Shown here piece by piece: positions 1,966 through 38,624 of a DNA stretch of 53,077 nt. The position numbers were made by a program, and so were the translations under genes. Source of the stretch: a virus; IMG/VR virus record IMGVR_UViG_3300038418_000044, positions 1-53,077 of that record. One strand, 5' to 3'. The notes below the pieces were generated by a model. The model had not been told where the DNA came from. It saw only the letters and a list, made by a program, of their open reading frames with translations, and did no database searches. Numbering within the stretch: the stretch's first letter is position 1; the number at the start of each line of letters is the position of its first letter.

Positions 1966-2612
1966 GTTTCACTGTCCTAGATGTTGGCTGCCGCGGGGGG
2001 CCACCAGATGCATGGCTTCCAATCCCAGACTTGCGCATCATTGGCTTCGACGTGGATGGACGGGAGTGCAAGAGGCTGATTAGCCTCTATCCGCAGTTCA
2101 CCTTCGTAACCTGCGCGCTGGGGTCGAAAGCTGGTGAGGGCTGCTTCTACCTTGCCCAAGACACCAGTTCTTCCTCCTTCTACCCACCGCGCGAAGAGGT
2201 GCTATCCTCTTACAAAGTCGTGGATGCATGGGATAAGGTACCCATTCGCACGCTGGACTCTTTTGCGCAGGAATACTTCCCAACTGGCGCTGACTTCTTA
2301 AAGTTGGACGCGCAGGGCTATGAGTTGGAAATCCTATGGGGGTCGGTGGAGACTCTAAAGTCAGTTGTGCTGGTTCAGGCTGAGGTCGAGTTCAACCCGC
2401 TCTACCAAGGCCAGCCTCTCTTTGGCGAGGTGGACGCTTTCCTGCGCGCACAGGGATTCGAGTTGTGGGACTTCCGGCAGATAACACATTATGGTAGAGG
2501 TCAGTTGTACTGGGCGGACGCTTACTATGTGCCCAAGCCCCTGCGCGACTTTGACAAGACGCAGGTCATCATGCACGCTCTGGAGTTTAATAAGTTCTTT
2601 GAGGCGGCGTAA
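1962..2612 (+). CDS. FkbM-family SAM-dependent methyltransferase
   Basis: A 216-residue class I methyltransferase. Motif I is TVLDVGCRGGPPDAW (4-18), followed by the acidic end of strand 2 in GFDVDGREC. The FkbM hallmark DFLKLDAQGYELEIL lies at about 111-125. FkbM enzymes methylate hydroxyl groups, often on sugars of glycans or glycoproteins, which fits its place between two glycosyltransferase genes. It would be expected to cap or decorate the product of those transferases; this is inferred from context. GTG start overlaps the preceding stop codon; the next gene begins 3 bases after its stop. Confidence 0.85.
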   Translation: MSFTVLDVGCRGGPPDAWLPIPDLRIIGFDVDGRECKRLISLYPQFTFVTCALGSKAGEGCFYLAQDTSSSSFYPPREEVLSSYKVVDAWDKVPIRTLDSFAQEYFPTGADFLKLDAQGYELEILWGSVETLKSVVLVQAEVEFNPLYQGQPLFGEVDAFLRAQGFELWDFRQITHYGRGQLYWADAYYVPKPLRDFDKTQVIMHALEFNKFFEAA

Positions 2613-2614
2613 TC

Positions 2615-3436
2615 ATGAATATTGCTTGTTTGTTTCCATCTAACGTGGGCTGCGGATATTGCATGGCTGATGGCGTGCCCATCGTGCTTCGGCGCATGGG
2701 CCATAGAGTCATGGAATACCGCAATCCTAGGATAGCGGACGGGCCATGTGAGTTTCCCGGATTTGACCTCGTGCTAGTTCTAGTACCGGAGGCTATAGAC
2801 TCCAAGATTTACGCCAGCGCCAAACCGCCCATCGCTCTCTGGATATGCGAGACGACGGGGCGCGAAGACTTCGACTTTGGGCCGGGTTATGACTTCCTAA
2901 CCAAACTCACTCCCTATTGCTTTTTCCCATCCGCCAGTGATGCTGAGCACTACGGCTGCACCTTCCTGCCATTTGGAGTGGACACTGAAGTGTTCCAGCC
3001 CATGCCCGAAATCAAGCGGGATGTAGCAGTGGGATTCTTGGGACAACTCTATGCCAAGCGGCGTGTGTTCTTGGGTAAGCTGGAAGAGGCTGGAATCCAT
3101 GTTGAGGTACTGCCCCGTGTAGAGTGGGACTCTGACCCCAAAGTGTGGGGGGAGAACTTAGTTCTCGCCTATAATCGCATAGACCTGTTCGTCAGTCTGC
3201 CTTCGCTATCACTGCTAACGGTCTGCAAGGTATACGAAGCTATGGCCTGCGGGTGCGTGGTTGCTGAGATGCACGGGGAAGAGGACATTGAGGGGCTCAA
3301 GCGGATCATTGCGTGGGGCCGCGAGCACCGAGATGAGGCTGGGATGCAGGCTAGGATGTCGGCGGTGAAGTACTATAAGTTGGAATATCGCTTGCAGAAG
3401 ATTCTCGACACGGTAGCAGCGGGAGATAAAAAATGA
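2615..3436 (+). CDS. CgeB-like glycosyltransferase
   Basis: A 273-residue GT-B type protein. The C-terminal donor domain begins near FLGQLYAKRRVFL (141-153) and carries KVYEAMACGCVVAE (205-218), the usual end of the sugar-nucleotide pocket in CgeB/spore maturation-type glycosyltransferases. The mid-region PFGVDTEVFQPM (119-130) matches the inter-domain linker that these proteins share. The sequence is shorter than cellular relatives. It is co-oriented and tightly packed with the FkbM methyltransferase upstream and a hypothetical gene downstream. The reaction is presumably sugar transfer from an NDP-sugar; acceptor unknown. Confidence 0.78.
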   Translation: MNIACLFPSNVGCGYCMADGVPIVLRRMGHRVMEYRNPRIADGPCEFPGFDLVLVLVPEAIDSKIYASAKPPIALWICETTGREDFDFGPGYDFLTKLTPYCFFPSASDAEHYGCTFLPFGVDTEVFQPMPEIKRDVAVGFLGQLYAKRRVFLGKLEEAGIHVEVLPRVEWDSDPKVWGENLVLAYNRIDLFVSLPSLSLLTVCKVYEAMACGCVVAEMHGEEDIEGLKRIIAWGREHRDEAGMQARMSAVKYYKLEYRLQKILDTVAAGDKK

Positions 3437-8509: not shown

Positions 8510-9991
8510 ATGAGTAAGTACCATATCTTTGATGCGGATATCCTAGCCTGGGCTGCCTCGTATACTGGGCCAAAATTCCACGCAGCCCTTATGGATGCGC
8601 CCTATAATTTCGCGTTCATGGGCAAAGCCTTCGATACCTTCGATTCTCCCATGGCTTTCCAAAAATGGTGCCAAGAATGGGCTATGGCCTTACTTCCTTT
8701 GCTGTATCCAGGCGCTCTGGTGATGTGCTTCGGTGGCCCTCGCACCCACCACAGACTCATGTGTGGGCTGGAGGATGCAGGCTTCGAGTTGATTGACTGC
8801 TTATGCTATTTATTCGGGCAGGGCTTTCCAAAAAGTCAGGATTTGTCAAAGCTCATCGACAAGGCGAATGGGGATAAAAGGAAGGTTGTAGGCTCTAAGA
8901 TTGGTCTGCCTGGGTACTCACTTTCACCCATGCAGAGTGGAGTGAGCCTTGAACTATCAAAGCACCGGGATGCTGAATCGGAATGCGCTATTACCGCACC
9001 TGCTTCCGAACAGTCTGCCCCATGGGCGGGACACAAGACTCCGCAACTTAAGCCAGCGGTTGAGTATATCGTGTTCGCACAAGCGCCGAGGCAGGGCAAG
9101 ACGTATGCGGAGTTGGCGCTGGAGTATGGTAGTGGGGCGCTGAATGTGGATGGGGGGAGGATTGGCACTGAGGAGATATGCGCTCACGGTGGGGGCATAA
9201 ACCAAGAGGGCCGAAAGTATGGTGGCGGGACTGGAGTGCCAGCAATCACAGCGGGAAGCTATCAGCATACAGGCCGCTACCCCGCCAATCTCGCGCTGGA
9301 ATGCACTTGCGATGAAGTGGAATTGGTGGATGCGCCTGTATACGGTGATGTGAAGAAGCCAACCCCGAAGCGGTCAGTAGTGGCAATTGGCGAGTTCAAA
9401 GAAGCTACGTGGGAAGCCTATCGCGACAAAGCTATCCGCCACACCAACCCCGATTGCCCCGCTGCGATGCTGGATGAGCAGGCAGGAATCTTACGCTCTG
9501 GTAAAGATGTGAATCCAACAAAGGGTGCAGTCCAAGGCTACTTCGGTTCAGGCATGGAGAAGTATAATCCCAATGGGAATGCCAATTATGGTGACTCCGG
9601 TGGGCCGAGCAGGTTTTTTTATCAAAGTAAGGCTTCCCGAAGTGAGCGCGAAGAGGGCTTGCTTGGCACTATCTGCTGCTCCAACGTAGACTGCTTGGGC
9701 GTGGATACTCTCACCCACAAGAATGAGAAAGGCCAGGATGTTCCCTGCATACGCAACCCGCATCCAACGGTGAAAGCCATCAACCTGTGCAAGTGGCTAT
9801 CTACCCTGCTCCTGCCTCCAGAGTCCGTGAAGCCTAGGCGAATCTTAGTGCCCTTCGCTGGCGTGGGGAGCGAAATGATAGGCTGCTTGCAAGCTGGATG
9901 GGATGAAATTATGGGCGTGGAGCAGGATGCCAGCTACTGTGAGATTGCGGAAGCTAGGCTCGCGCATTGGGCTAAGAAGCTAGATGAGTAG
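8510..9991 (+). CDS. DNA (adenine/cytosine-N4) methyltransferase, beta class
   Basis: A 493-residue protein. Catalytic motif IV is DAPY (29-32), a variant of the DPPY of N6-adenine and N4-cytosine methyltransferases. The SAM-binding motif I FAGVGSE is near the C-terminus (about 449-455), followed by GVEQDASYCEIAEARL. This order (catalytic first, SAM site last) defines the beta class. The long middle region would hold the target recognition domain. It begins at ATG 8510, behind GGAG; the in-frame extension upstream to 8405 runs into the opposing endonuclease gene and is rejected. Likely role: protection of phage DNA from host restriction. It overlaps the UDG-exonuclease gene by 8 bases. Confidence 0.85.
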   Translation: MSKYHIFDADILAWAASYTGPKFHAALMDAPYNFAFMGKAFDTFDSPMAFQKWCQEWAMALLPLLYPGALVMCFGGPRTHHRLMCGLEDAGFELIDCLCYLFGQGFPKSQDLSKLIDKANGDKRKVVGSKIGLPGYSLSPMQSGVSLELSKHRDAESECAITAPASEQSAPWAGHKTPQLKPAVEYIVFAQAPRQGKTYAELALEYGSGALNVDGGRIGTEEICAHGGGINQEGRKYGGGTGVPAITAGSYQHTGRYPANLALECTCDEVELVDAPVYGDVKKPTPKRSVVAIGEFKEATWEAYRDKAIRHTNPDCPAAMLDEQAGILRSGKDVNPTKGAVQGYFGSGMEKYNPNGNANYGDSGGPSRFFYQSKASRSEREEGLLGTICCSNVDCLGVDTLTHKNEKGQDVPCIRNPHPTVKAINLCKWLSTLLLPPESVKPRRILVPFAGVGSEMIGCLQAGWDEIMGVEQDASYCEIAEARLAHWAKKLDE

Positions 9992-11432
9992 CAACTTCGA
10001 CCGCGGTAAATTCGTAATCGGCATTGGCCCCACACCAGCGCAAGTGTTTGAGGCTGGGAGGAATCCGGGTGAGCAAGAGTCCCGAATTGGTCTACCCTTT
10101 GTCGGTAAGGCAGGTGCGGAACGTGCAATGTATCATCTCAGGGCGGATTTGCAGTTAGCCGATTACTATACGACCAATTTATTCAAGTATTGGACTTTCG
10201 ACGATGCCCCCCCGGATGAGGCAAATTACGACAGCCATTGGCCAGTTTTCGTCAGGGAACTGGCAGTAGTTCAACCTAGCATTCTCGTCACCTTCGGAGC
10301 GGATTGCTCAGAATACATATTCAAGAAATGTGGCTTGCCCTGGTTAGACCTTGAGCGCCAGCATGGAATCCCCTTCGCCGCCACTCTTGACATCCAAGAG
10401 GGCCTCTCTGCCGACTGCGACCGTGAGCTACCAGAGGACGATACTGGGCTTGATTGGCTAATGAACTTAATGTCCATAGCTCCAGAGACTAGCGAACCGC
10501 TTGAGCTTACCCTGTTTCCCTGCCTCCACCCTGCGGCTGGAATCCATTCACCCTCCAGTATGAGTTTAATCTACACTGACTTCCTAGCGCTCTCCAAGCT
10601 ACTTAGGGGCCAACTACCGCTCCGCGACGATTCTAGGGCTGTTGTAGCCCCAGCAATTGGCATTCTGAGCGATGTTTCGGATGTTGAGTCCAGCTTCCAG
10701 GCGGATAGCTTAGTCATGGGTCTAGACACTGAGGGCCAAAGTTCTAGGCCGTGGGGGCTAACCTATTCTTTTCAACCACATACGGGCTACTGCATTCTCT
10801 CCCACAGCAGGGAAGCGCTAGTTGCGTTTACATGCTGCTTAGAATCATTCGCCGCGCGTGGCGGCACCATCGTAGTTCACAACATGCTGTGGGATTTGGA
10901 TGTCCTCGCGGCGATGGGTATCCACCTGCCGGAGAGAAGTTGCCTTGATAGCATGATAGGATTGTATTTATTGGGTAGGGAGCCGCAAGGTCTAAAGGCT
11001 GCATCATATAGGCACTTAGGGGTAATGATGAAAGCCTACAGTGATGTAATCCAACCCTACTCCGATAAATACGCCAAATTGTACCTTGAAGCTGCCGCAT
11101 CCATAGATTGGGGAGTTTGCCCAAAATGTGGAGCAGCCTCAGCGGTGAATACCGAACATCCGTTAGGCGGAGTAGAAAACTTGCCCAAAGAGTGGCTCAG
11201 GAAAGATGGGCAAACGCTACGTTCTAAATTCTCTGGCATGGTTGAGATATGCGATGGCGGATTGGCGGAGCATGGCGAAATGGTCCTAGATAAAAAAGGC
11301 AATGCTAGGTGGAAACGGGTACTTTCGATCAATCAGCGCATACAGCGCGCCCTTAAGAATTTCTATAGTAAAGAGGGAGCGTCTGATGCCGCAGAAGCGA
11401 TTGATGTTGAAACCGGGGGAGAGGTATGGTAG
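9984..11432 (+). CDS. Split DNA polymerase I, first half: UDG-like domain plus 3'-5' exonuclease Exo I/II
   Basis: A 482-residue protein. Residues 10-215 resemble family 4 uracil-DNA glycosylases: [19 protein letters not shown] (26-44) corresponds to the G-x-x-P-G...G-x-P-F-V-G motif and FPCLHPAAG (178-186) to the HPxxG loop. Residues 240-355 are a DNA polymerase I-type 3'-5' exonuclease with Exo I D248/E250 and Exo II N300/D304. Exo III is missing here and occurs in the gene at 13539. Phage SPO1 polymerase is known to have the order UDG-like, exonuclease, polymerase, so this looks like its N-terminal half. The last about 18 codons overlap an HNH endonuclease gene in another frame; a displaced native tail seems to follow that gene at 11971-12049. 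Confidence 0.85.
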
Positions 11433-11970
11433 ACTGACAATAATTGGAGATGCACCACAAGGCCGTCACCACGCATCAAGAGTTAGGTGTATGTGCGATT
11501 GCGGAACAGAGACAATCGTATTCGCAACTAATCTTGTCAGGCAGAGGCCAACAAAAAGCTGTGGCTGCTTATCTAGGGAAATGGTCAGCCTTCGGGGCTG
11601 GAAGCACGGTCAATCGAGTGGTCACATTAGGACTAAGGATTATGTTACTTGGTGTAACATGAAAAGTAGGTGCTACAATCCAGCAAATCGACAGTACAAA
11701 TACTATGGAGGGCGTGGGATAAAGGTGTGTGCTGAATGGATGCACGATTTCATAGCCTTTATGAAGTATATGGGACTACGGCCCACACCAAAGCACACCT
11801 TAGACCGCATAGATGTGAACGGCAATTATGAGCCGGGAAATGTGAGATGGGCTACCCCACGAGAACAACTGTACAACCGCAGGAAATTCCAAGTTATTGA
11901 GAATTTTGATACTGACGTTCTGCTATCTGAACTTAAGCGCAGGGGCCTACGTACTACTACAGAAACCTAG
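11386..11970 (+). CDS. HNH homing endonuclease
   Basis: A 194-residue protein. The N-terminus [11 protein letters not shown] and the zinc-like CMCDCG...KSCGCLSRE form the module usual in phage HNH endonucleases. The HNH core comprises [45 protein letters not shown] (136-155: H137, D140, N152) and a closing N-rich helix. It starts at ATG 11386 behind GAGGGAG, inside the 3' end of the UDG-exonuclease gene (47-base overlap). Such endonucleases cut an uninvaded allele and spread by repair. Its position beside the split of the polymerase gene suggests that polymerase genes are its target. Confidence 0.88.
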
Positions 11971-12049
11971 CCTGCCCCGCCAGAGGACTTGACAGAGGAT
12001 GCAATTGATGCTAACCTAGAGATGGAGTTGCCAGTCCTGCCTGCAGCGT
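11971..12049 (+). pseudogene. Probable displaced 3' end of the UDG-exonuclease gene
   Basis: Immediately after the HNH stop codon an open stretch of 26 codons without a start codon encodes an acidic tail (PAPPEDLTEDAIDANLEMEL and six further residues) ending in TAA. Composition is protein-like and it contains DAIDANLE, which loosely resembles EAIDVET in the present C-terminus of the UDG-exonuclease protein. This is read as the original C-terminus cut off by the HNH insertion. Without a homologue for comparison this remains an inference. Confidence 0.4.
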
Positions 12050-12098
12050 AAGCGCAGGATGCCCCACTAAGCATCCAAAGAGTGGAGGTACCATCACT

Positions 12099-12856: not shown

Positions 12857-13539
12857 TGGTTTTGCAGTATATGGGTGGGAAATTTAGGATAGTCAAACCC
12901 CTAACTTCCTTTCTGGAGGAGCAGCGTGCTGGACGCCCATTCGTAGAGCCATTCGTTGGGGCTGCGTGGGTGACAGCCTCCATGAGTGGCATACGCATAT
13001 CCTCTGACATCCACCCTGACCTAATTCTGATGTGGCAAGCCATTCAAGCAGGGTGGATTCCACCTAGCACAGTTACAGAAGAGGAATACAATCAGTTAAG
13101 AACTGCCGAACCATCAGCCCTACGCGGCTTCGTTGGCTTTGGCTGTTCATTCGCAGGGAAATGGTTTGGTGGATATGCTCGGTCCGGTAAGCGCAACTAT
13201 GCTCTGAATGCCAAGAATTCCTGCATCAAACTAGCCCCCTCCATACAGAGTGTGCAGTTCCTCTGCCGAGATTACCAAGACGTGTACGTGGATGGTAGTT
13301 TAATTTATTGTGACCCACCCTATGAGGATACTACTGGCTACTTTCAAGCCTTTGATTGGGTATGCTTCTGGAATACCATGCGGGAGTGGACTAGGGAGAA
13401 TTTAGTGTACGTCTCTTCTTACAAAGCTCCACCAGACTTCGCTTGCGTGGCTGAGTTCCCAACCAAGACCGATATGCGCACCAACAGAAACGGTAAAGAA
13501 GCTAGAGTCGAACGGCTGTTCTCATTGAGGCAGGCCTGA
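12853..13539 (+). CDS. Dam-like (D12 class) adenine-N6 DNA methyltransferase
   Basis: A 227/228-residue protein matching the D12 class in order and length (a little shorter than the 260-280 usual). SAM motif I is FVEPFVGAAWV (29-39), preceded by QYMGGKFRIVKPL, the typical N-terminal Q-Y-x-G-x-K block. Catalytic motif IV is CDPPYEDT (about 152-159). It would methylate adenine in a short recognition sequence, giving protection from restriction or marking DNA. The start is GTG 12853 or ATG 12856, overlapping the previous gene; its TGA overlaps the ATG of the polymerase half (TGATG), implying coupled translation. It lies between the two halves of the split polymerase. Confidence 0.9.
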   Translation: MMVLQYMGGKFRIVKPLTSFLEEQRAGRPFVEPFVGAAWVTASMSGIRISSDIHPDLILMWQAIQAGWIPPSTVTEEEYNQLRTAEPSALRGFVGFGCSFAGKWFGGYARSGKRNYALNAKNSCIKLAPSIQSVQFLCRDYQDVYVDGSLIYCDPPYEDTTGYFQAFDWVCFWNTMREWTRENLVYVSSYKAPPDFACVAEFPTKTDMRTNRNGKEARVERLFSLRQA

Positions 13540-15029
13540 TGGCGCAGAGCACGCCTAGAGAGCGCTGGGAGGGTTGGCCACATTCTCTCACTGCAAAAGT
13601 TGAGGAAATTATAGGACCCTTTCCTCAAGTTTCCATTTTTGATTGTCCAGAGTCCGAAAGCGTACCCTACGCAACTGGCGATGCCTGCGCGACTAACGCC
13701 CTCTACTCCAATTATCTCCTGCCTGAAATCCGATCCCGCAAACTAATGGACTTGTGGAAGATGGACATGGGCGTGGTTCCTATGGCCGCGCGCATGCAGA
13801 AAATAGGCATGCTCCTAGATTTGCCCCATTTTGCGTGGTTCTCTGGCTACCTGCAAGAGGAGATGGACGCTGTACTGGCGAAGATTAAGCCGCTGGCAGG
13901 CGACATCAATCCAGAGTCCTCGGATGAAGTGGCTGAGCTGCTGTTTGAGAAATGGGAGATTCAGCGCGGCAGCGGCATCAGGCTCAAACGCACGCCAAAG
14001 CTGGGGCGGTATAAGTGTGATGATACCACGCTGCAAGCTGTGCGCAAGCTGCATCCTGTGGTGCCGCTCATAAGTGAGCACCGCTCACTGGATAAATTGA
14101 AGGGCACATTCATTGACAAGCTACCCTTCATGGTGGATGCGAATGGGCGCATCCATACGCAGCTACGCTTGACAAGAGTACCATCAGGAAGATTCAGCTC
14201 CCATTCACCGAACCTTCAGCAGATACCCACTGAGACATTACTGGGGAGCCTAGTACGGTCAGGCTTCATCGCTAAGCCGGGATGCGTCTATGGCTCATTC
14301 GACCTCGCGGGGATCGAATTAAGGACCGCCGCGCATCTATCTGGCGATGCGTTCTTGCGTAAACTGTTTACCACCCTTGACCCCGAGACTGGTGAGGAGT
14401 GGGACCCGCACACGCAAACTGCTAGCCGCTTATTCGGCAAGCCTGCTAGTCAGATAGACCGTAAGACTGAACGCTACCCAACCAAATCGGCTGGATACTT
14501 GATTCTCTTTGGCGGGACCTCGGCTGGGCTATCTGAGTATCTCACTATCTACGGGCTGGACGGCTGGACGGAGGATAGGTGTGAGGAATTCATAAAGGAG
14601 TGGTTCAGGGTCTACTCAGGTATTGCTCAGTGGGTGAAGGGCATCCATTCCCACGTACTGCTCTACGGTTGGGTGGAGGACCTCTTCAAGCGCCGACTGT
14701 GGTGCGCCCAAGCTTGGAGCACAATTCCGAAGGTGCGCGAAGAGGGTCTACGGTTGGCCCAAAACATGCCCATCCAAGGCACAGCGGCTGGCATCCTCAA
14801 ACTAGCAACCGCACGCGCATGGGAGGTCATAAAGGATTTCTGGAAGCGGGGTGTGGATATGGAACCCCTGCTCAGCTTACATGATGAACTATTATTCGAG
14901 TTCCCCGATGGATTGCAGCAGGAAGTCGAATCGGCTATCAAGCCCTGTTTTGAGAACTGCATTCAGCTAAGCGTTCCCATCCGCGCTGGCTTTGGCTGCG
15001 CCTCTGATTGGGGCAGCATACCAAAATAG
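13539..15029 (+). CDS. Split DNA polymerase I, second half: Exo III plus polymerase domain
   Basis: A 496-residue family A polymerase without most of its exonuclease domain. The N-terminus (to about residue 65) is the end of a 3'-5' exonuclease domain with Exo III Y44/D48 in PYATGDACATN. The polymerase motifs are complete: motif A DLAGIELR (D255, E260, R262), motif B R312-K316-Y320-F324-G325 and motif C HDE (H448-E450). Tyr at the position of E. coli Phe762 is as in T7 polymerase. It would extend the primer strand in phage replication and must pair with the product of the gene at 9984 to rebuild a proofreading domain. Start ATG is coupled to the preceding methyltransferase gene. Confidence 0.92.
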   Translation: MAQSTPRERWEGWPHSLTAKVEEIIGPFPQVSIFDCPESESVPYATGDACATNALYSNYLLPEIRSRKLMDLWKMDMGVVPMAARMQKIGMLLDLPHFAWFSGYLQEEMDAVLAKIKPLAGDINPESSDEVAELLFEKWEIQRGSGIRLKRTPKLGRYKCDDTTLQAVRKLHPVVPLISEHRSLDKLKGTFIDKLPFMVDANGRIHTQLRLTRVPSGRFSSHSPNLQQIPTETLLGSLVRSGFIAKPGCVYGSFDLAGIELRTAAHLSGDAFLRKLFTTLDPETGEEWDPHTQTASRLFGKPASQIDRKTERYPTKSAGYLILFGGTSAGLSEYLTIYGLDGWTEDRCEEFIKEWFRVYSGIAQWVKGIHSHVLLYGWVEDLFKRRLWCAQAWSTIPKVREEGLRLAQNMPIQGTAAGILKLATARAWEVIKDFWKRGVDMEPLLSLHDELLFEFPDGLQQEVESAIKPCFENCIQLSVPIRAGFGCASDWGSIPK

Positions 15030-15178: not shown

Positions 15179-15572
15179 GCGCGAGGAATCCTTCTTCAAC
15201 CACGATCTAGACCCCATACTGCGCAGTTGTAGGAGATGCGGTAGAACCTCGGAGTCTATAGCAGTAGATTATCCTTGGTTTGATGGTCGAGACCCTGGTA
15301 CAGTCTACTGGGTTGTAGTCCCAAAGCGCAGAGACGGCGGTGTACCAGACCTCGGCAAAAAGTATGAGGAAAGTCTTGGATTCCTAGATAAGCATGGTCA
15401 GCTTTTGGTTGAGACGAGAGTTTCAGAGGGCGGCTTCTTCTCCATACGGGAAGAGGCCCAAGCATTTATGGATTCACTGGATGCCTACACTAAGCCCCTT
15501 GTTGAGGTGCGCGAGGTGGTAGCAATCTTTATCTGTGGAGTTGGAGGAGAGAATGGCGACCGAAAAGGTTGA
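15165..15572 (+). CDS. Hypothetical protein (135 aa)
   Basis: No family recognised. The sequence has a short Cys pair (SCRRCGRT, about 21-28), a beta-rich middle (GTVYWVVVPKRR) and a helical C-terminus. Start at ATG 15165 behind GAGGAGAG; upstream in-frame TTG 15150 is less likely. It is the second gene after the promoter at 15033 and overlaps the next gene by 20 bases. Function unknown. Confidence 0.6.
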   Translation: MATDKREESFFNHDLDPILRSCRRCGRTSESIAVDYPWFDGRDPGTVYWVVVPKRRDGGVPDLGKKYEESLGFLDKHGQLLVETRVSEGGFFSIREEAQAFMDSLDAYTKPLVEVREVVAIFICGVGGENGDRKG

Positions 15573-15939
15573 ACTGATTAGCAACGAGTTCCGCGATAGG
15601 ATAGAGTCCATTGATATGGATGTCTATCCTACTCTTGAAGCCATTGGTCTGGATGAGGACTTCGCCCTGCTGGTTAGCCGTCGCGTGAAGGTGACAGCTA
15701 CCATAAAGGCGCTGGAAGAGGAGAAAGCTGGGCTGGATGCTTCCATTGCGGCAGCTATGGAATGCGTAAACTCTCCCTCCTGCACCGCTTCCGGCTACAA
15801 GGTTTCGCTCAGCGTGGGCTCGCGCTCAACACTGGACAAGGTGGCGCTCATCGAGCATGGCGTGAAGAAGTCCATCATCGAGGCTTGCACTAAGGTATCT
15901 AAGTTTGTGAGCCTGCGAATGTATGAGGTGAAGAAGTGA
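15553..15939 (+). CDS. Hypothetical helical protein (128 aa)
   Basis: ATG 15553 is preceded by GGAGGAGAG, an excellent ribosome binding site. The protein has a helical first half (VSRRVKVTATIKALEEEKAG, about 42-61) and a second half with a STLDKVALIEHGVKKSIIEA block (about 95-114) ending in a short strand (VSLRMYEVKK). Proteins with this helix-then-LIEHGV layout are frequent small phage proteins without known role. Its stop overlaps the GTG of the next gene. Confidence 0.6.
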   Translation: MATEKVELISNEFRDRIESIDMDVYPTLEAIGLDEDFALLVSRRVKVTATIKALEEEKAGLDASIAAAMECVNSPSCTASGYKVSLSVGSRSTLDKVALIEHGVKKSIIEACTKVSKFVSLRMYEVKK

Positions 15940-16091
15940 GTGACGCCCATCGTTGGCGGCACGGAAATGTCCCGGGCTGCGAGTTTTGCAAGAAATATAT
16001 AAAGGGGGCGTACCGCAAAGGCCACCACCGTTGTCCTCACTCAAAACGTGCTAAGAAGAATAGGCAGTCAATCGTGCTTGGCCCACAGTGA
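15936..16091 (+). CDS. Small zinc-binding-like protein with an element-supplied C-terminus (51 aa)
   Basis: GTG start overlaps the preceding stop. The product has a Cys/His pattern (GCEFCKKY, then HHRCPHSK) that could bind zinc, and a basic tail. Its last 12 codons (16053-16091 with stop, KKNRQSIVLGPQ) recur almost unchanged as protein after the following HNH gene (16585-16623, KKDRQSIVVGMQ) but with different synonymous codons. The simplest reading is that the HNH element inserted here and brought its own copy of this gene's 3' end. Confidence 0.65.
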   Translation: MSDAHRWRHGNVPGCEFCKKYIKGAYRKGHHRCPHSKRAKKNRQSIVLGPQ

Positions 16092-16623
16092 ACGAGAATG
16101 CCATATAAGAATCCAGAGGATAAGCTGAGAAACACTAGGAGATATGCTAGGGAGTGCAGAGAGAAAAAATTAGCCTCTCAAGGTGCCTTCAGTCGTTCGC
16201 CAAAAGGAAAAGCAGTGAGTGCCAAGTACTACCGAGTTAACAGCCCAGAAATAAAGGCTAAGCGTGCCACAGAACGGCGCACTCCCAAAGGCCGTTTCTC
16301 GATTGCTAGAGGTGCTGCTAAGCACCGAGGATTGGACTGGGTGCTAAGTTTCGATGAGCACATGGAATTGCTTGCACATCCGTGCTATTACTGCCAAGGA
16401 CCCTTGAACGAAACTAGCATAGGCTTGGATAGGCTAGATCATCGTTTAGGCTATGTACACGGGAATGTAGTTCCTTGCTGTGGGAAATGCAATACTAGAA
16501 AGGGACATCTTGAAGCCGTAGGGTTCTTTTATCCAAGGACTGTAGAATTGATGCGCGAACTGTTTGCGGGAGAGTCAGCAGACCAAGAAGGATAGGCAAT
16601 CCATCGTGGTGGGGATGCAATAG
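16053..16623 (+). mobile_element. Homing element bounded by a duplicated, recoded gene end
   Basis: The unit runs from the recoded gene end (16053-16091) through the HNH gene to the displaced native gene end (16585-16623). Both ends are 39 bases long including the stop codon; 27 of 39 bases and 9 of 12 residues match. Several mismatches are synonymous third-position changes, which fits a copy maintained for its protein and altered at DNA level. Confidence 0.65.
16098..16595 (+). CDS. HNH homing endonuclease
   Basis: A 165-residue protein. The N-terminal 75 residues are very basic and probably bind DNA (LRNTRRYARECREKKL). The HNH/treble-clef core runs from PCYYCQGPL (C96, C99) through GLDRLDHRLGYVHGN to VVPCCGKCNTRKGH (C128, C131). 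It starts 6 bases after the end of the 51-residue gene. Its last 11 bases overlap the start of a displaced copy of that gene's 3' end. Together with the duplication on its flanks it looks like an intact mobile endonuclease gene. Confidence 0.9.
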   Translation: MPYKNPEDKLRNTRRYARECREKKLASQGAFSRSPKGKAVSAKYYRVNSPEIKAKRATERRTPKGRFSIARGAAKHRGLDWVLSFDEHMELLAHPCYYCQGPLNETSIGLDRLDHRLGYVHGNVVPCCGKCNTRKGHLEAVGFFYPRTVELMRELFAGESADQEG

Positions 16624-16624
16624 C

Positions 16625-16882
16625 GTGGAAACCATAACCAGCCTAGTCCAAACCTGCGAAGCGTGCCCCTCTCAGTGGGAAGGTCTAACCGAGACTGGCA
16701 GGCACGTCTACATCCGCTATCGCGGCGGCGTTCTATGCTGGGGATTGGGCAGCAGCATGCGAGGGGCTGTAGAGAATTCCCGCAGCAACGCTCTGTGCCT
16801 CGGAGACTTTCTAGATGGCTATATACCCCAGCAAGAAATGCAGGATTGTTTGATGCGGTGCGGCCTTAGATTCGCACTGTAA
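16625..16882 (+). CDS. Hypothetical protein (85 aa)
   Basis: GTG start one base after the stop of the displaced gene end. The N-terminal half has a Cys pair (TCEACPSQWEG) and a beta hairpin typical of short phage proteins (GRHVYIRYRGGVLCWG, about 25-40); the C-terminal half is helical with further cysteines. No function can be assigned. It is followed by 93 bases without a gene containing a weak promoter-like sequence. Confidence 0.55.
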   Translation: METITSLVQTCEACPSQWEGLTETGRHVYIRYRGGVLCWGLGSSMRGAVENSRSNALCLGDFLDGYIPQQEMQDCLMRCGLRFAL

Positions 16883-16891
16883 AGCCAGCCT

Positions 16892-16920
16892 TGATAGGCA
16901 GGAAGGCCATCTCACTAATG
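16892..16920 (+). promoter_or_regulatory. Weak promoter-like sequence
   Basis: TTGATA, 17-base spacer, ACTAAT upstream of the LamG-domain gene. It matches the spacing of the stronger promoters of this phage, but the -10 box is poor, so it is only a candidate. Confidence 0.3.
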
Positions 16921-16975
16921 GCTGAGCTGATTGTTTTCTGGGCTCAGCACGATGAATAGATGGAGAGATGAGCAA

Positions 16976-19396
16976 ATGGCAATTCTTACACCAGCTAGGG
17001 TAAGCGTAGGTTTCGGATCGCCCGCGATACAGTCAACAGGCACTTACAAGGTTGTTGGGGGATATCAAGTGCCGGTGATGGTAACCGTGAACGCTTCATA
17101 CCGCACCCCAGGGGGGTACATATTCCCTATATCTGGATTATGTCCCGTCACCCTGCAAAGTTCCAACGGTCTATTTCCAGTCCCAGCAAGCATCAATGTC
17201 TCATTCGCCAAGCCCATTACGGATTCATCCGGGAATGGCAACAACGGCACTTGGTTTGGGACACTCGTAGGAACGAATATGGGCTACTATTCCCAGGACA
17301 GGCTGAGCGGGTTAGCTGGGACGTTCGACGGGAGCACCGATTATGTGACCGTTCCCAATGTGACGAGTCTTCAACTCAGGGCTGGAACCATATCCTGTTG
17401 GATAAAGTGCAGCAACGTGGGAGCAGGCTACCGTGGCATTGTGACAAAGGCGCTGGCGTATGGTATCTTTCTGAACTCTGGCGTTTTCGGTTTATATGAC
17501 TGGGGAAGTTCTGCTTGGAGGTCATCGGGTAGATCGGTCGCTGATGGGAGTTGGCATCATGTAGTTGCAGTCTTTTGTAGCGGCATGGCTAGTGGGACGC
17601 TTCTGTTCGTTGATGGAAAACTCTATGCCACTACCATGATGACGATACCATCCACCAATGCCTACTTCAGGTTGGACAGCCAGTCACAACCTTTAACGAT
17701 TGGAACGAACGGCCTCCCAGTTACACTGGGAAATCCCCAGCAGGACTTTGTTGGCTGCATAGATGATGTCCGCTTATACAGCCGGACGCTTTCCGCAGCA
17801 GAGGTAGCCAGAATATATAACGGAAGTGGCCCCACGGACTCCATGGCGGGCTGGTGGAAGTTTGACGAGGGAATGTTGACCTCCAGCAGCGCCACCTTCA
17901 TGATGAACACTCCCGTCCTGAGCAGCGACTCTGCCGCAACTACGATCACGGCTACCTATCTAGCTGCCACAAATTCGGCTGGTATAACGGCTTATCCAAT
18001 GGTCAGCAGTTTGGCTATCAGCGTGCCAGCTGTATTGAACGATCTGCCACCTCTGGGCACATACAACACGGGCGTTCCTGTTCCTCCTAACACCCCCCAT
18101 CCTTCCATGGTGGGAGGTGTAGCGACGGTAAAGATCACTCCATCCCCTTACGTGAATAGCAGCATTACGCAGCCAATCTCCCTTAGCTATTCTCCCAACG
18201 TAAAGCAAGTCCTTTCTACCCCCGTCTATCAGGGCTCCGGTGTATGGGGCGGGCCAGCGGTTAGCCTCAATGCTAATGTGCCGAGCAGTGTTGATCTGAG
18301 GAGTGGAGCCCCTGTCTCCTTCCCTATTACGACTTGGCTTCCTGCATCAACAGACTATCAGCAGATGCCGTACACGATAACGGTTTCGGCCACGTTAAAG
18401 ACCATCACGATTAGCTCCGCCCTGTCTGTTGCCAGCTTGAGCCAGACACTTGCCGGGATTGCTACGCTGAACGATACTACCCTAGCATCCAGCATTCCCC
18501 TAAAGGGTTTAGGGCTCATCCAGTTAGCAACTACCAGTCCCTTCAATCAAATACCTACTACGCCAGCAGTGATTATACCATCGAATGTGTCACAGGCCAT
18601 TACTGATTTTGGTGAGATGGTTTGCGGGCTGCTCGGCATTGAGCCCATCAAGATACCTGGGCTCCCAAACCCCTTTCCCCCGCAGAAGGTTCTATGGCAG
18701 GAACTTTCCATGAACCCGATATACGCCGCTCTGGACTGGGCAAACTTCTGGAAGTCGGAGCGTGCCCTCGAATGCATAAGCGCCGCCCTGTGGTTGATAT
18801 GCGCTCTCCTTCTTCTCGTTGATCCCGTAGTGTGGTGCTTCGTGTTGGCTGCGATTATCCTGGCCATCACGCGGCTTCTGATGATATTTACCGGCATCAA
18901 CTCAATGGTCGCTTCCAACGTGGTGGAAGACAGCGCTAATCCCGGATACATCAAGGTCGTGTCCTCCATATACACGATGGAACAACTGATGCGGTGGCTG
19001 GAACTCGTAGAAGCTGACGAACCTCTCCTGGGGGAATTGGTTACTGACATCCAGCAGCTTGAGGGAATAGTGACTGACCCGAATGCCTTGGTCTTCGCTC
19101 AGAAGATCGGCGATGAGATGCAACTGGTTATTCGGAACCAATATCCGCTTACCAATAGATTCTATAACACTGGGGCTCTAAAGCAGGGCTTTGAAACGCT
19201 GCTGGAAACCGTCAATCCCAGTACCGGGTTAACGTATACCCAACCGCAGATTCTCACAAACCTGAACAACTGCTATCTTGCTGAACTCCAGCTACTCCAG
19301 GTTGCTGCCGCTACGGTCGGAGACACTACCAGGGCTGGGGCCATAGGGCTGCTAATCACGGAAATGCAGTATATATGGAGCCATACCAGTCCTTGA
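16976..19396 (+). CDS. LamG/concanavalin-like domain protein with C-terminal membrane segments (806 aa)
   Basis: ATG 16976 is chosen because GGAGAG lies eight bases upstream. Residues about 80-290 form a LamG-type lectin/glucanase fold: DSSGNGNNGTW, the GTFDGSTDYVTVPN strand, SWHHVVAVF, LFVDGKLY and the closing IDDVRLYSRTLSAAEVARIY. A long Ser/Thr/Pro-rich beta region follows. At about 600-640 two hydrophobic stretches (AALWLICALLLLVDPVVWCF and VLAAIILAITRLLMIF) look like membrane helices, then a helical C-terminus. LamG domains bind glycans and are common in phage fibres, but the membrane segments and the plus-strand position away from the tail genes are odd. It may act at the host envelope. 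Confidence 0.7.
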   Translation: MAILTPARVSVGFGSPAIQSTGTYKVVGGYQVPVMVTVNASYRTPGGYIFPISGLCPVTLQSSNGLFPVPASINVSFAKPITDSSGNGNNGTWFGTLVGTNMGYYSQDRLSGLAGTFDGSTDYVTVPNVTSLQLRAGTISCWIKCSNVGAGYRGIVTKALAYGIFLNSGVFGLYDWGSSAWRSSGRSVADGSWHHVVAVFCSGMASGTLLFVDGKLYATTMMTIPSTNAYFRLDSQSQPLTIGTNGLPVTLGNPQQDFVGCIDDVRLYSRTLSAAEVARIYNGSGPTDSMAGWWKFDEGMLTSSSATFMMNTPVLSSDSAATTITATYLAATNSAGITAYPMVSSLAISVPAVLNDLPPLGTYNTGVPVPPNTPHPSMVGGVATVKITPSPYVNSSITQPISLSYSPNVKQVLSTPVYQGSGVWGGPAVSLNANVPSSVDLRSGAPVSFPITTWLPASTDYQQMPYTITVSATLKTITISSALSVASLSQTLAGIATLNDTTLASSIPLKGLGLIQLATTSPFNQIPTTPAVIIPSNVSQAITDFGEMVCGLLGIEPIKIPGLPNPFPPQKVLWQELSMNPIYAALDWANFWKSERALECISAALWLICALLLLVDPVVWCFVLAAIILAITRLLMIFTGINSMVASNVVEDSANPGYIKVVSSIYTMEQLMRWLELVEADEPLLGELVTDIQQLEGIVTDPNALVFAQKIGDEMQLVIRNQYPLTNRFYNTGALKQGFETLLETVNPSTGLTYTQPQILTNLNNCYLAELQLLQVAAATVGDTTRAGAIGLLITEMQYIWSHTSP

Positions 19397-37460: not shown

Positions 37461-38624
37461 CTACTTGGAAACTTTCGTAGCTGCATAAGAAATCAATTCA
37501 TGCTCCCAGATGCGTTGAGGCTTATACCCAGCAGCAGCGGCATCAACAACAGCCCTAGCATCGCGTTCCTGCTGATCGGGCTTTCCACAACCCGGACGGT
37601 GGATTGGGCATCCATGCCAAAAGCAGCCATCCACGTCTACTACAGTATTGGGCGGTATAAAGAAATCCCATATGTGCCCTGCTGCGGAGAACTGCCATTT
37701 ATATGGCGTACCAGCAGCCTCCAACTCCTGTGCAAAGGCACGCTCAGGAGCAGTAAATCTAAAGAATTTCTTTTTCGCCTCTGGTGTCTGCATCCATGTG
37801 CGGCGTCCAGCACCCACAGCCAGCCTAGACTCCTCTGGCATCCTGTGGCCAGTCTGCTCAAACCGTTCATCATTGGCGCGGCGCGCAGCAGCGTGGGCAT
37901 CATCCATGTAGGCAGATTTTTCTTCTGGGGTGAGGTTAGCGAACCACGTCCTGCGCCTGGCACTAATCTTCGCCTTGGTTTCCTCTGTATGCTTCCAACC
38001 ATAACGTATCTCATTTGTGGTGCCAGCAGCAATACGCTCTTTCGTGGCTATTGACATCTGTGCACTTCTCCGTGCTTTCTCTTCAGGACTCATAGATGCG
38101 TGATATTCCACCATGGCCATACTCTGCTTTGCTATAGTTTCAGGAGTGGGGCGTATACCGCGTTGGCGCAGAGACATAGCTTCTCGAATCTCTGGAGACC
38201 TCTTTTTGCCACTATTAGCCAAGCTAATCTTTGCCTTCGTTTCGTCAGACATAGGACCATGTGGCTTACCCTTCTTAGCTGCGCTTATTTTATGCCTCGT
38301 CTCTTCCGATGGACTGTGGGGATGGCGGGTTTTTAGGGCTGCCATATGTTTAGCCCTGCGCTCAGGAGTAGACCATGAGCGCTTGCCAGCTTCCCTGAGG
38401 ATTTGGTGTATTTCCTCTGGGGCGGATGCGTAGAAGTCTTGTGATATCTTCCGCAGCTTTTCACGCGTCTCAGAAGTAGGATGATGGCCCAAGTGGCTAG
38501 TGGATAGCTTCTCTATAGTTTCAGGTGATCTCCTCTTGCCGCGATTGGCAAGTCCAATTTTGCGCTTGGTTTCCTCTGAGTGCTTACGACCCCGCCGATG
38601 GAGTTTTGGACGGTATTCTTCCAT
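37461..38624 (-). CDS. NUMOD3/Vsr-like homing endonuclease (387 aa)
   Basis: Residues 1-240 consist of several NUMOD3-type repeats (HSEETKRKIGLANRGKRRSP; MSDETKAKISLANSGKKRSP; TPETIAKQ), a DNA-binding array. The C-terminal about 90 residues are a Vsr-like PD-(D/E)XK nuclease: GHIWDFFIPPNTVVDVDGCF (catalytic acidic region), WHGCPIH and a closing YKPQRIWEHEL. It sits between a tail tube gene and the tail chaperone gene and appears to be an autonomous insertion in an intergenic region. The nuclease part shares its layout with the product of 7716-8474. Confidence 0.88.
   Translation of the reverse strand: MEEYRPKLHRRGRKHSEETKRKIGLANRGKRRSPETIEKLSTSHLGHHPTSETREKLRKISQDFYASAPEEIHQILREAGKRSWSTPERRAKHMAALKTRHPHSPSEETRHKISAAKKGKPHGPMSDETKAKISLANSGKKRSPEIREAMSLRQRGIRPTPETIAKQSMAMVEYHASMSPEEKARRSAQMSIATKERIAAGTTNEIRYGWKHTEETKAKISARRRTWFANLTPEEKSAYMDDAHAAARRANDERFEQTGHRMPEESRLAVGAGRRTWMQTPEAKKKFFRFTAPERAFAQELEAAGTPYKWQFSAAGHIWDFFIPPNTVVDVDGCFWHGCPIHRPGCGKPDQQERDARAVVDAAAAGYKPQRIWEHELISYAATKVSK

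Follow-up and report, generated by a model that had tools for sequence, protein, structure and literature searches.

Two diverged ends of one gene flank an HNH endonuclease gene in a viral operon, probably through homing with one-sided co-conversion

The window analysed here, an uncultured virus record of 53,077 bases taken at its full length, contains an HNH endonuclease gene that lies between two diverged versions of the 3' end of a single gene. We consider homing with one-sided co-conversion a likely origin of this arrangement: the first end (tail 1) and the HNH gene would derive from a diverged donor, and the second end (tail 2) would be the recipient's own, left behind. The boundary feature in the window is real, explainable and recurring, with the same anatomy at HNH loci in unrelated genes (endolysin, RusA-like, SMC-like ATPase and DUF551) and, in mirror image, at 5' ends.

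Gene order around the HNH gene

The HNH gene belongs to a compact run on the + strand, in which genes for a 134-residue protein (p134; 15535-15939, with an alternative ATG at 15553), a 51-residue protein (15936-16091), the HNH endonuclease (16098-16595) and an 85-residue protein (16625-16882) follow one another. The C-terminal part of p134 resembles the RecE-like phrog_434, and its stop codon overlaps the start of the 51-residue gene (GTGA). The 51-residue protein, which is rich in Cys and His and matches no family, is the product of the host gene and carries the apparently replaced tail. Tail 1 comprises the last 12 codons and the TGA stop codon of this gene (16053-16091) and may have arrived together with the HNH gene. 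The latter, encoding 165 residues, starts 6 nt behind the new stop codon, and its own stop codon (16593-16595) falls within tail 2 (16585-16623). Tail 2 is the putative displaced native end of the 51-residue gene.

The 85-residue gene, assigned to phrog_16837, begins with GTG at 16625, 1 nt past tail 2. Its putative ribosome-binding site, GGUGGGG (-7.0 kcal/mol), is located within tail 2 and ranks in the strongest 10-25% of random sites. Deletion of tail 1 and the HNH gene in silico yields a 51-residue protein ending in KKDRQSIVVGMQ and native spacing in the operon.

Two diverged copies of one gene end

The end of the 51-residue gene reads AAGAAGAATAGGCAGTCAATCGTGCTTGGCCCACAGTGA and the stretch behind the HNH gene reads AAGAAGGATAGGCAATCCATCGTGGTGGGGATGCAATAG. 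Copy 1 (16053-16091) is KKNRQSIVLGPQ-TGA and copy 2 (16585-16623) is KKDRQSIVVGMQ-TAG; they agree at 27 of 39 nucleotides and 9 of 12 residues, with their stop codons in register. An earlier note on this DNA had given these coordinates, letters and matches, all of which were confirmed on recheck. Its description of copy 2 as having no start codon is too strong: the 23-codon stop-to-stop frame contains TTG, GTG and ATG, although none of these resembles a gene start.

Against copy 1, copy 2 has a BLOSUM62 score of 43, compared with a mean of -11, an SD of 7 and a maximum of 25 for a background of ~2,200 stop-anchored 12-mers of the window. On both strands of the window, every other 39-mer shares at most 22 bases with copy 1, and the two tails form the sole strong stop-anchored pair within 2.5 kb. 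The 12 differences are distributed 3/2/7 over codon positions 1, 2 and 3, and the probability of keeping at least 10 of the 13 codon meanings under 12 random substitutions is ~1e-4 to 4e-4. Because the differences favour silent positions to this degree, the two copies must have diverged as coding sequence and not as neutral or operator DNA.

Homology sets in abruptly at the KK codons, and sequence comparison within the window revealed no further remnant of the 51-residue gene upstream of tail 2. The locus shares two hallmarks of the mobile ORFs (mORFs) of fungal mitochondria: a host gene is followed at its 3' end by an endonuclease ORF and then by a second gene end, and the upstream tail is in frame, diverged in DNA and conserved in protein.

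The HNH protein

The core residues that are invariant or nearly so in the alignment are intact, within the zinc/HNH core CYYC..LDRLDHRLGY..N..CCGKCNTRK (16383-16502). The gene matches endonuclease-VII-like PHROGs (phrog_1035, E 8.5e-15), and its score against Pfam Endonuclease_7, 17.5 bits, lies under the cut-off of 23.6. In the predicted structure (pLDDT 80), the best match is the HNH restriction enzyme PacI, with a Z of 9.7 over 105 residues. By sequence and predicted fold, the catalytic and zinc motif of the HNH/endonuclease VII-like type is complete.

The composition of the gene points to a foreign origin, since its GC content, 0.48, falls within the bottom 1.1% for stretches of this length and its GC3 is 0.43, as against 0.56-0.65 in the neighbouring genes. 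An Rfam scan of 15400-17400 found no intron, and no group I intron core around the ORF, at any plausible score. The insert of ~530 nt is almost wholly ORF, with its own start and stop codons. By the scan and by this filling of the insert, the HNH gene is free-standing, outside any intron or intein.

Other homing-type genes in the window

A second HNH gene of the phrog_374 type (11386-11970, GC 0.47) starts within the 3' end of the polymerase-N ORF. The start-less block behind it (region 11386-12051), which ends in ..TEDAIDANLEMELPVLPAA-stop, bears a faint likeness to the end of that ORF. We rejected this gene as a further two-end case: the resemblance of the block (..TEDAIDANLEMEL..) is weak and out of stop register.

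A UDG-exonuclease-DNA polymerase A protein is split in the window (9984-11432 and 13539-15029), and an HNH gene, a 96-residue ORF and a Dam-like methyltransferase gene lie between its exonuclease and polymerase parts. This protein is encoded by one ORF in six related loci (L027, L028 and L030-L033) and is split elsewhere in other relatives. A third homing-type ORF, on the - strand (37461-38624), has repeats typical of the DNA-binding regions of homing endonucleases (phrog_314) and a C-terminal stretch, VDVDGCFWHGCP, which we take to have a Vsr-like look.

Loci with HNH-less relatives

IMG/VR, INPHARED and the fetched virus loci yielded no homologue of the 51-residue gene. Queries with this gene and with those for p134 and the polymerase, run against IMG/VR, INPHARED and GTDB genomes, likewise returned no relative of the host gene. 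The closest polymerase homologues, at 33-39% identity, come without the 51-residue gene. The anatomy of carboxy-terminal replacement in the window is that of other loci, and by this analogy we infer it for the window's own case. Two of these other loci have HNH-less relatives. The displaced tail matches that of the relatives lacking the ORF at L298, and does so less sharply at L375.

L298 is a prophage in a genome of the class Bacilli, and its host gene encodes an SMC/RecF-like ATPase. The upstream tail, AAGGCCGGGGAGTTTTGA, overlaps the HNH start, and the HNH gene reads into the downstream tail, AAAGCAGGTGAATTTTAATGCAAGTC, where the next gene starts. Four HNH-less relatives with 81-84% identity (L350, L352, L354 and L355) and phage Vegas have one tail each, identical to the downstream copy of L298 at 17-18 of 18 positions. 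In the four loci, this single tail continues straight into the same start of the next gene. The upstream copy is synonymous in 5 of 5 sense codons, 4 of them changed. No Rfam intron was found in L298. In two further loci, L351 and L353, PTWGTGSKTTWKAGEF takes the place of PTWKAGEF at the end of the SMC-like protein. This in-frame insertion of 8 residues, at the exact site of the L298 HNH element, is possibly the scar of a lost element.

The second locus is that of Ruminococcus phage phiRgIBDN1 (L375), in which gp50 (DUF551) ends in WQPLPEPMRKE-stop and the HNH protein gp51 in MPLPEPYKEE-stop. This phage, phiRg507T2_2 (L382), phiRg519T2 (L380) and phiRgPS_6 (L381) are phages of one host strain. 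Up to ~1049, phiRgIBDN1 is 100% identical to the HNH-less phiRg507T2_2; from ~1170 to 1510, it is ~99% identical to the HNH-less phiRg519T2, including tail 1 at 60 of 60 positions. Tail 2 matches the HNH-less phages phiRgPS_6 and phiRg507T2_2 at 29-30 of 33 positions and phiRg519T2 at 24 of 33. No Rfam intron was found in phiRgIBDN1. As read from these alignments, the locus is a co-conversion tract that ends at the nuclease, with a donor gene end and the HNH gene apparently imported and the recipient end left in place.

Survey of other HNH loci

We surveyed 161 distinct HNH loci of phages and prophages (IMG/VR and GTDB genomes), together with some annotated phages, by comparing the translated flanks within each locus, with 3,000 swapped pairs as a control. 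Four loci scored above all 3,000 swapped controls: the window itself (W1), L203, L213 and L167. Hits at or above the 99th percentile of the control numbered 16, against ~2 expected, a count that overstates the true number because the swapped control does not keep each locus's own composition. Most of the surveyed HNH loci, including all other relatives of the window's HNH type, are without the two-end pattern.

In L203 (Paenibacillus alkaliterrae), the host gene encodes an Amidase_2 endolysin and EFRRLGFLK-stop is present on both sides of the HNH gene. The two tails share 9 of 9 residues and the stop, with 7 of 10 codons changed. HNH-less homologues have a single such tail, which in 2 of 3 continues into terminator-like sequence; no Rfam intron was found in L203. 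In L213 (Ca. Scalindua), a RusA-like protein has a replaced C-terminus. L167 (Hymenobacter cavernae; 2370-3175) is a mirror case, where a remnant of the old 5' end of a glycosyl hydrolase 108 gene precedes the HNH gene, and the complete gene, now with a new and diverged 5' end, follows it. The same order is found for a RusA gene in L224 (2441-3160), with the old 5' end before the HNH gene and a full gene with a diverged end after it. L224 (5' type) and L179 and L171 (3' type) are probable further cases, though weaker, and no HNH-less alleles were found for them.

Other candidates were set aside. The apparent hit in L014 is a tandem HNH gene pair; these paralogues (2-847 and 1113-1649) have 45-base repeats in their N-terminal halves and an 84-residue ORF between them. 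The signals of L159, L146, L219, L199 and L201 are probably composition noise. L315 is probably not a gene-end case: in the region 1420-1855, a terminator-like stretch is seemingly duplicated and flanks an HNH fragment on both sides (20 of 30 nt). This may be the boundary footprint in an intergenic form.

Divergence of the tails

The earlier note regarded tail 1 as a recoded copy. Pooled over four cases, codons for the same residue agree in 13 of 29 instances, about the fraction (0.43-0.56) found for the body of the SMC gene compared with its relatives, and a test for recoding beyond normal divergence gave it no support. Furthermore, a co-circulating HNH-less phage has the upstream tail of phiRgIBDN1 as its normal gene end. 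Since the pooled codons resemble the SMC gene body and this tail 1 is another phage's normal allele, special recoding is not needed; the "recoded" end is probably ordinary allelic divergence, and we revise the claim to that extent.

As a likely consequence, tail 1 would no longer be a good target for the HNH protein. The divergence of the two tails is also predicted as likely to hinder the tail-tail recombination that would delete the element. A wider idea, which we put forward tentatively and hold to be doubtful, is that such HNH elements are natural home-and-rescue drives, in which a rescue end of the target gene travels along and its divergence is under selection to resist both the nuclease and deletion by recombination, with 3' and 5' versions across bacterial phyla.

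Proposed mechanism and alternatives

Homing nuclease genes are passed on through the repair of double-strand breaks, during which their flanks are co-converted, and intron homing in T4 can involve one-sided illegitimate repair at microhomology when one flank is without homology (PMC2988022). In the scheme that we favour, the HNH gene would be a free-standing homing element, and cut-and-repair would have placed it at the 3' end of the 51-residue gene. The repair would copy the gene end (tail 1) and the HNH gene of a diverged donor phage into the recipient and rejoin them to the recipient at the cut, so that the recipient's last 12 codons (tail 2) remain behind the insert; the right-hand junction would be illegitimate. 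We infer the cutting by the window's HNH protein, the direction of replacement and the donor. Nuclease genes sit at boundaries of genetic exchange (PMC10448857), and the scheme would account for this because the donor end and the nuclease are copied and the recipient end is rejoined behind them.

The operon would still work after such an event: the host protein would have an equivalent C-terminus, and the next gene would retain its spacing and, within tail 2, its putative ribosome-binding site. Where donor and recipient differ in the gene end that is broken, the gene, the nuclease and the downstream gene would in this way all be kept. By analogy with L298 and phiRgIBDN1, which have HNH-less relatives, and with the same anatomy in the window, the proposal of the earlier note that the element entered at the 3' end, brought a protein-keeping replacement tail and displaced the native one is supported.

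The roles of the two tails could be swapped, as the direction is not readable from the window alone. Tail 1 would then be native, with the HNH gene inserted behind its stop codon and tail 2 a piece of a donor gene end that hitch-hiked on the right. The gene body of phiRgIBDN1 with tail 1, ~99% identical to an HNH-less phage, fits this order, and the locus could also be seen as an A-type gene followed by the HNH gene and then a B-type right flank. We nevertheless regard the reverse direction as improbable: the distance from tail 2 to the next gene, 1 nt, is that of the native operon, L298 shares its downstream tail and junction with its HNH-less relatives, and the left outer flank of phiRgIBDN1 (to ~1049) is identical to L382, itself of the tail-2 type.

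Tandem duplication has a slim chance of being correct; the 51-residue gene would once have been present twice, and the HNH gene would have overwritten all of the second copy but its final 12 codons. Two diverged coding ends in tandem would give the same local picture, and tandem paralogues are present in related loci (L037). Against it stand the sharp loss of homology at the KK codons, beyond which no remnant precedes tail 2, and the verified analogues, which are single-copy in HNH-less relatives.

Repression of its own gene is within the reach of a homing endonuclease, as with I-TevI (PMC2988022), and the repeated DNA might be a site or operator that the HNH protein binds, in place of gene ends. 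We find this very hard to reconcile with the preference of the differences for silent positions and with the different stop codons that end both copies in register; an operator would conserve DNA and not codons. HNH genes are often located in introns, but a spliced element, such as a group I intron, whose exon ends would be the tails is scarcely credible, given that no Rfam intron was found in 15400-17400, L298, L375 or L203, that the insert of ~530 nt is nearly all ORF and that splicing does not need two tails.

Relation to known systems and significance

The preferred reading, homing with one-sided co-conversion, has its nearest parallel in the fungal mitochondrial mORFs with carboxy-terminal replacement, known from atp6 of Allomyces and from atp6, atp9, cox2 and nad3 of Glomus (PMC3630166); the parallel to fungal mitochondrial atp6 that the earlier note had drawn is correct. 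As in the phage cases, an endonuclease ORF is located at the 3' end of the host gene with the native C-terminus behind it, and the in-frame replacement C-terminus is diverged in DNA (64-81% nucleotide identity in fungi) and similar in protein (PMC3630166). The fungal elements differ in being mitochondrial, in encoding LAGLIDADG or GIY-YIG enzymes and in having tails of ~50-240 nt (PMC3630166), whereas the phage cases have HNH enzymes, tails of ~20-70 nt and tight operons.

Like the window, T4 seg/mob, F-CphI and Skunavirus HNH have a stand-alone nuclease gene between phage genes (PMC2988022, PMC6083498, PMC12724721). Flank co-conversion is part of the known mechanism of free-standing phage homing endonucleases; among reports on them, we found none in which a gene end is replaced and the old one persists on the far side of the boundary. 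No published phage precedent was found in the open-licence literature, an absence that is weak evidence. The principle is already known in fungal mitochondria, and its apparent occurrence in phages, as suggested by these loci, is without a precedent that we found. The synthetic home-and-rescue drive HomeR works in a similar way, with a nuclease cassette that sits in the 3' end of a gene and is accompanied by a re-coded version of that end; it differs in being an engineered CRISPR/Cas9 system in Drosophila with a deliberately re-coded rescue tail, while the divergence in phages is natural (PMC7968924).

In this respect, the arrangement resembles engineered gene drives with their re-coded rescue ends. 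On the proposed reading, coding sequence, and not just intergenic gaps, is open to invasion by a stand-alone homing nuclease of a phage; the gene survives, and neither an intron nor an intein is needed. Its footprint, two diverged ends of one gene flanking a nuclease, would mark the donor, the recipient and the cut position. Recognition sites of uncharacterised HNH genes would therefore become predictable and testable, with the cultured Ruminococcus phages phiRgIBDN1 and phiRg519T2 as an example of test material.
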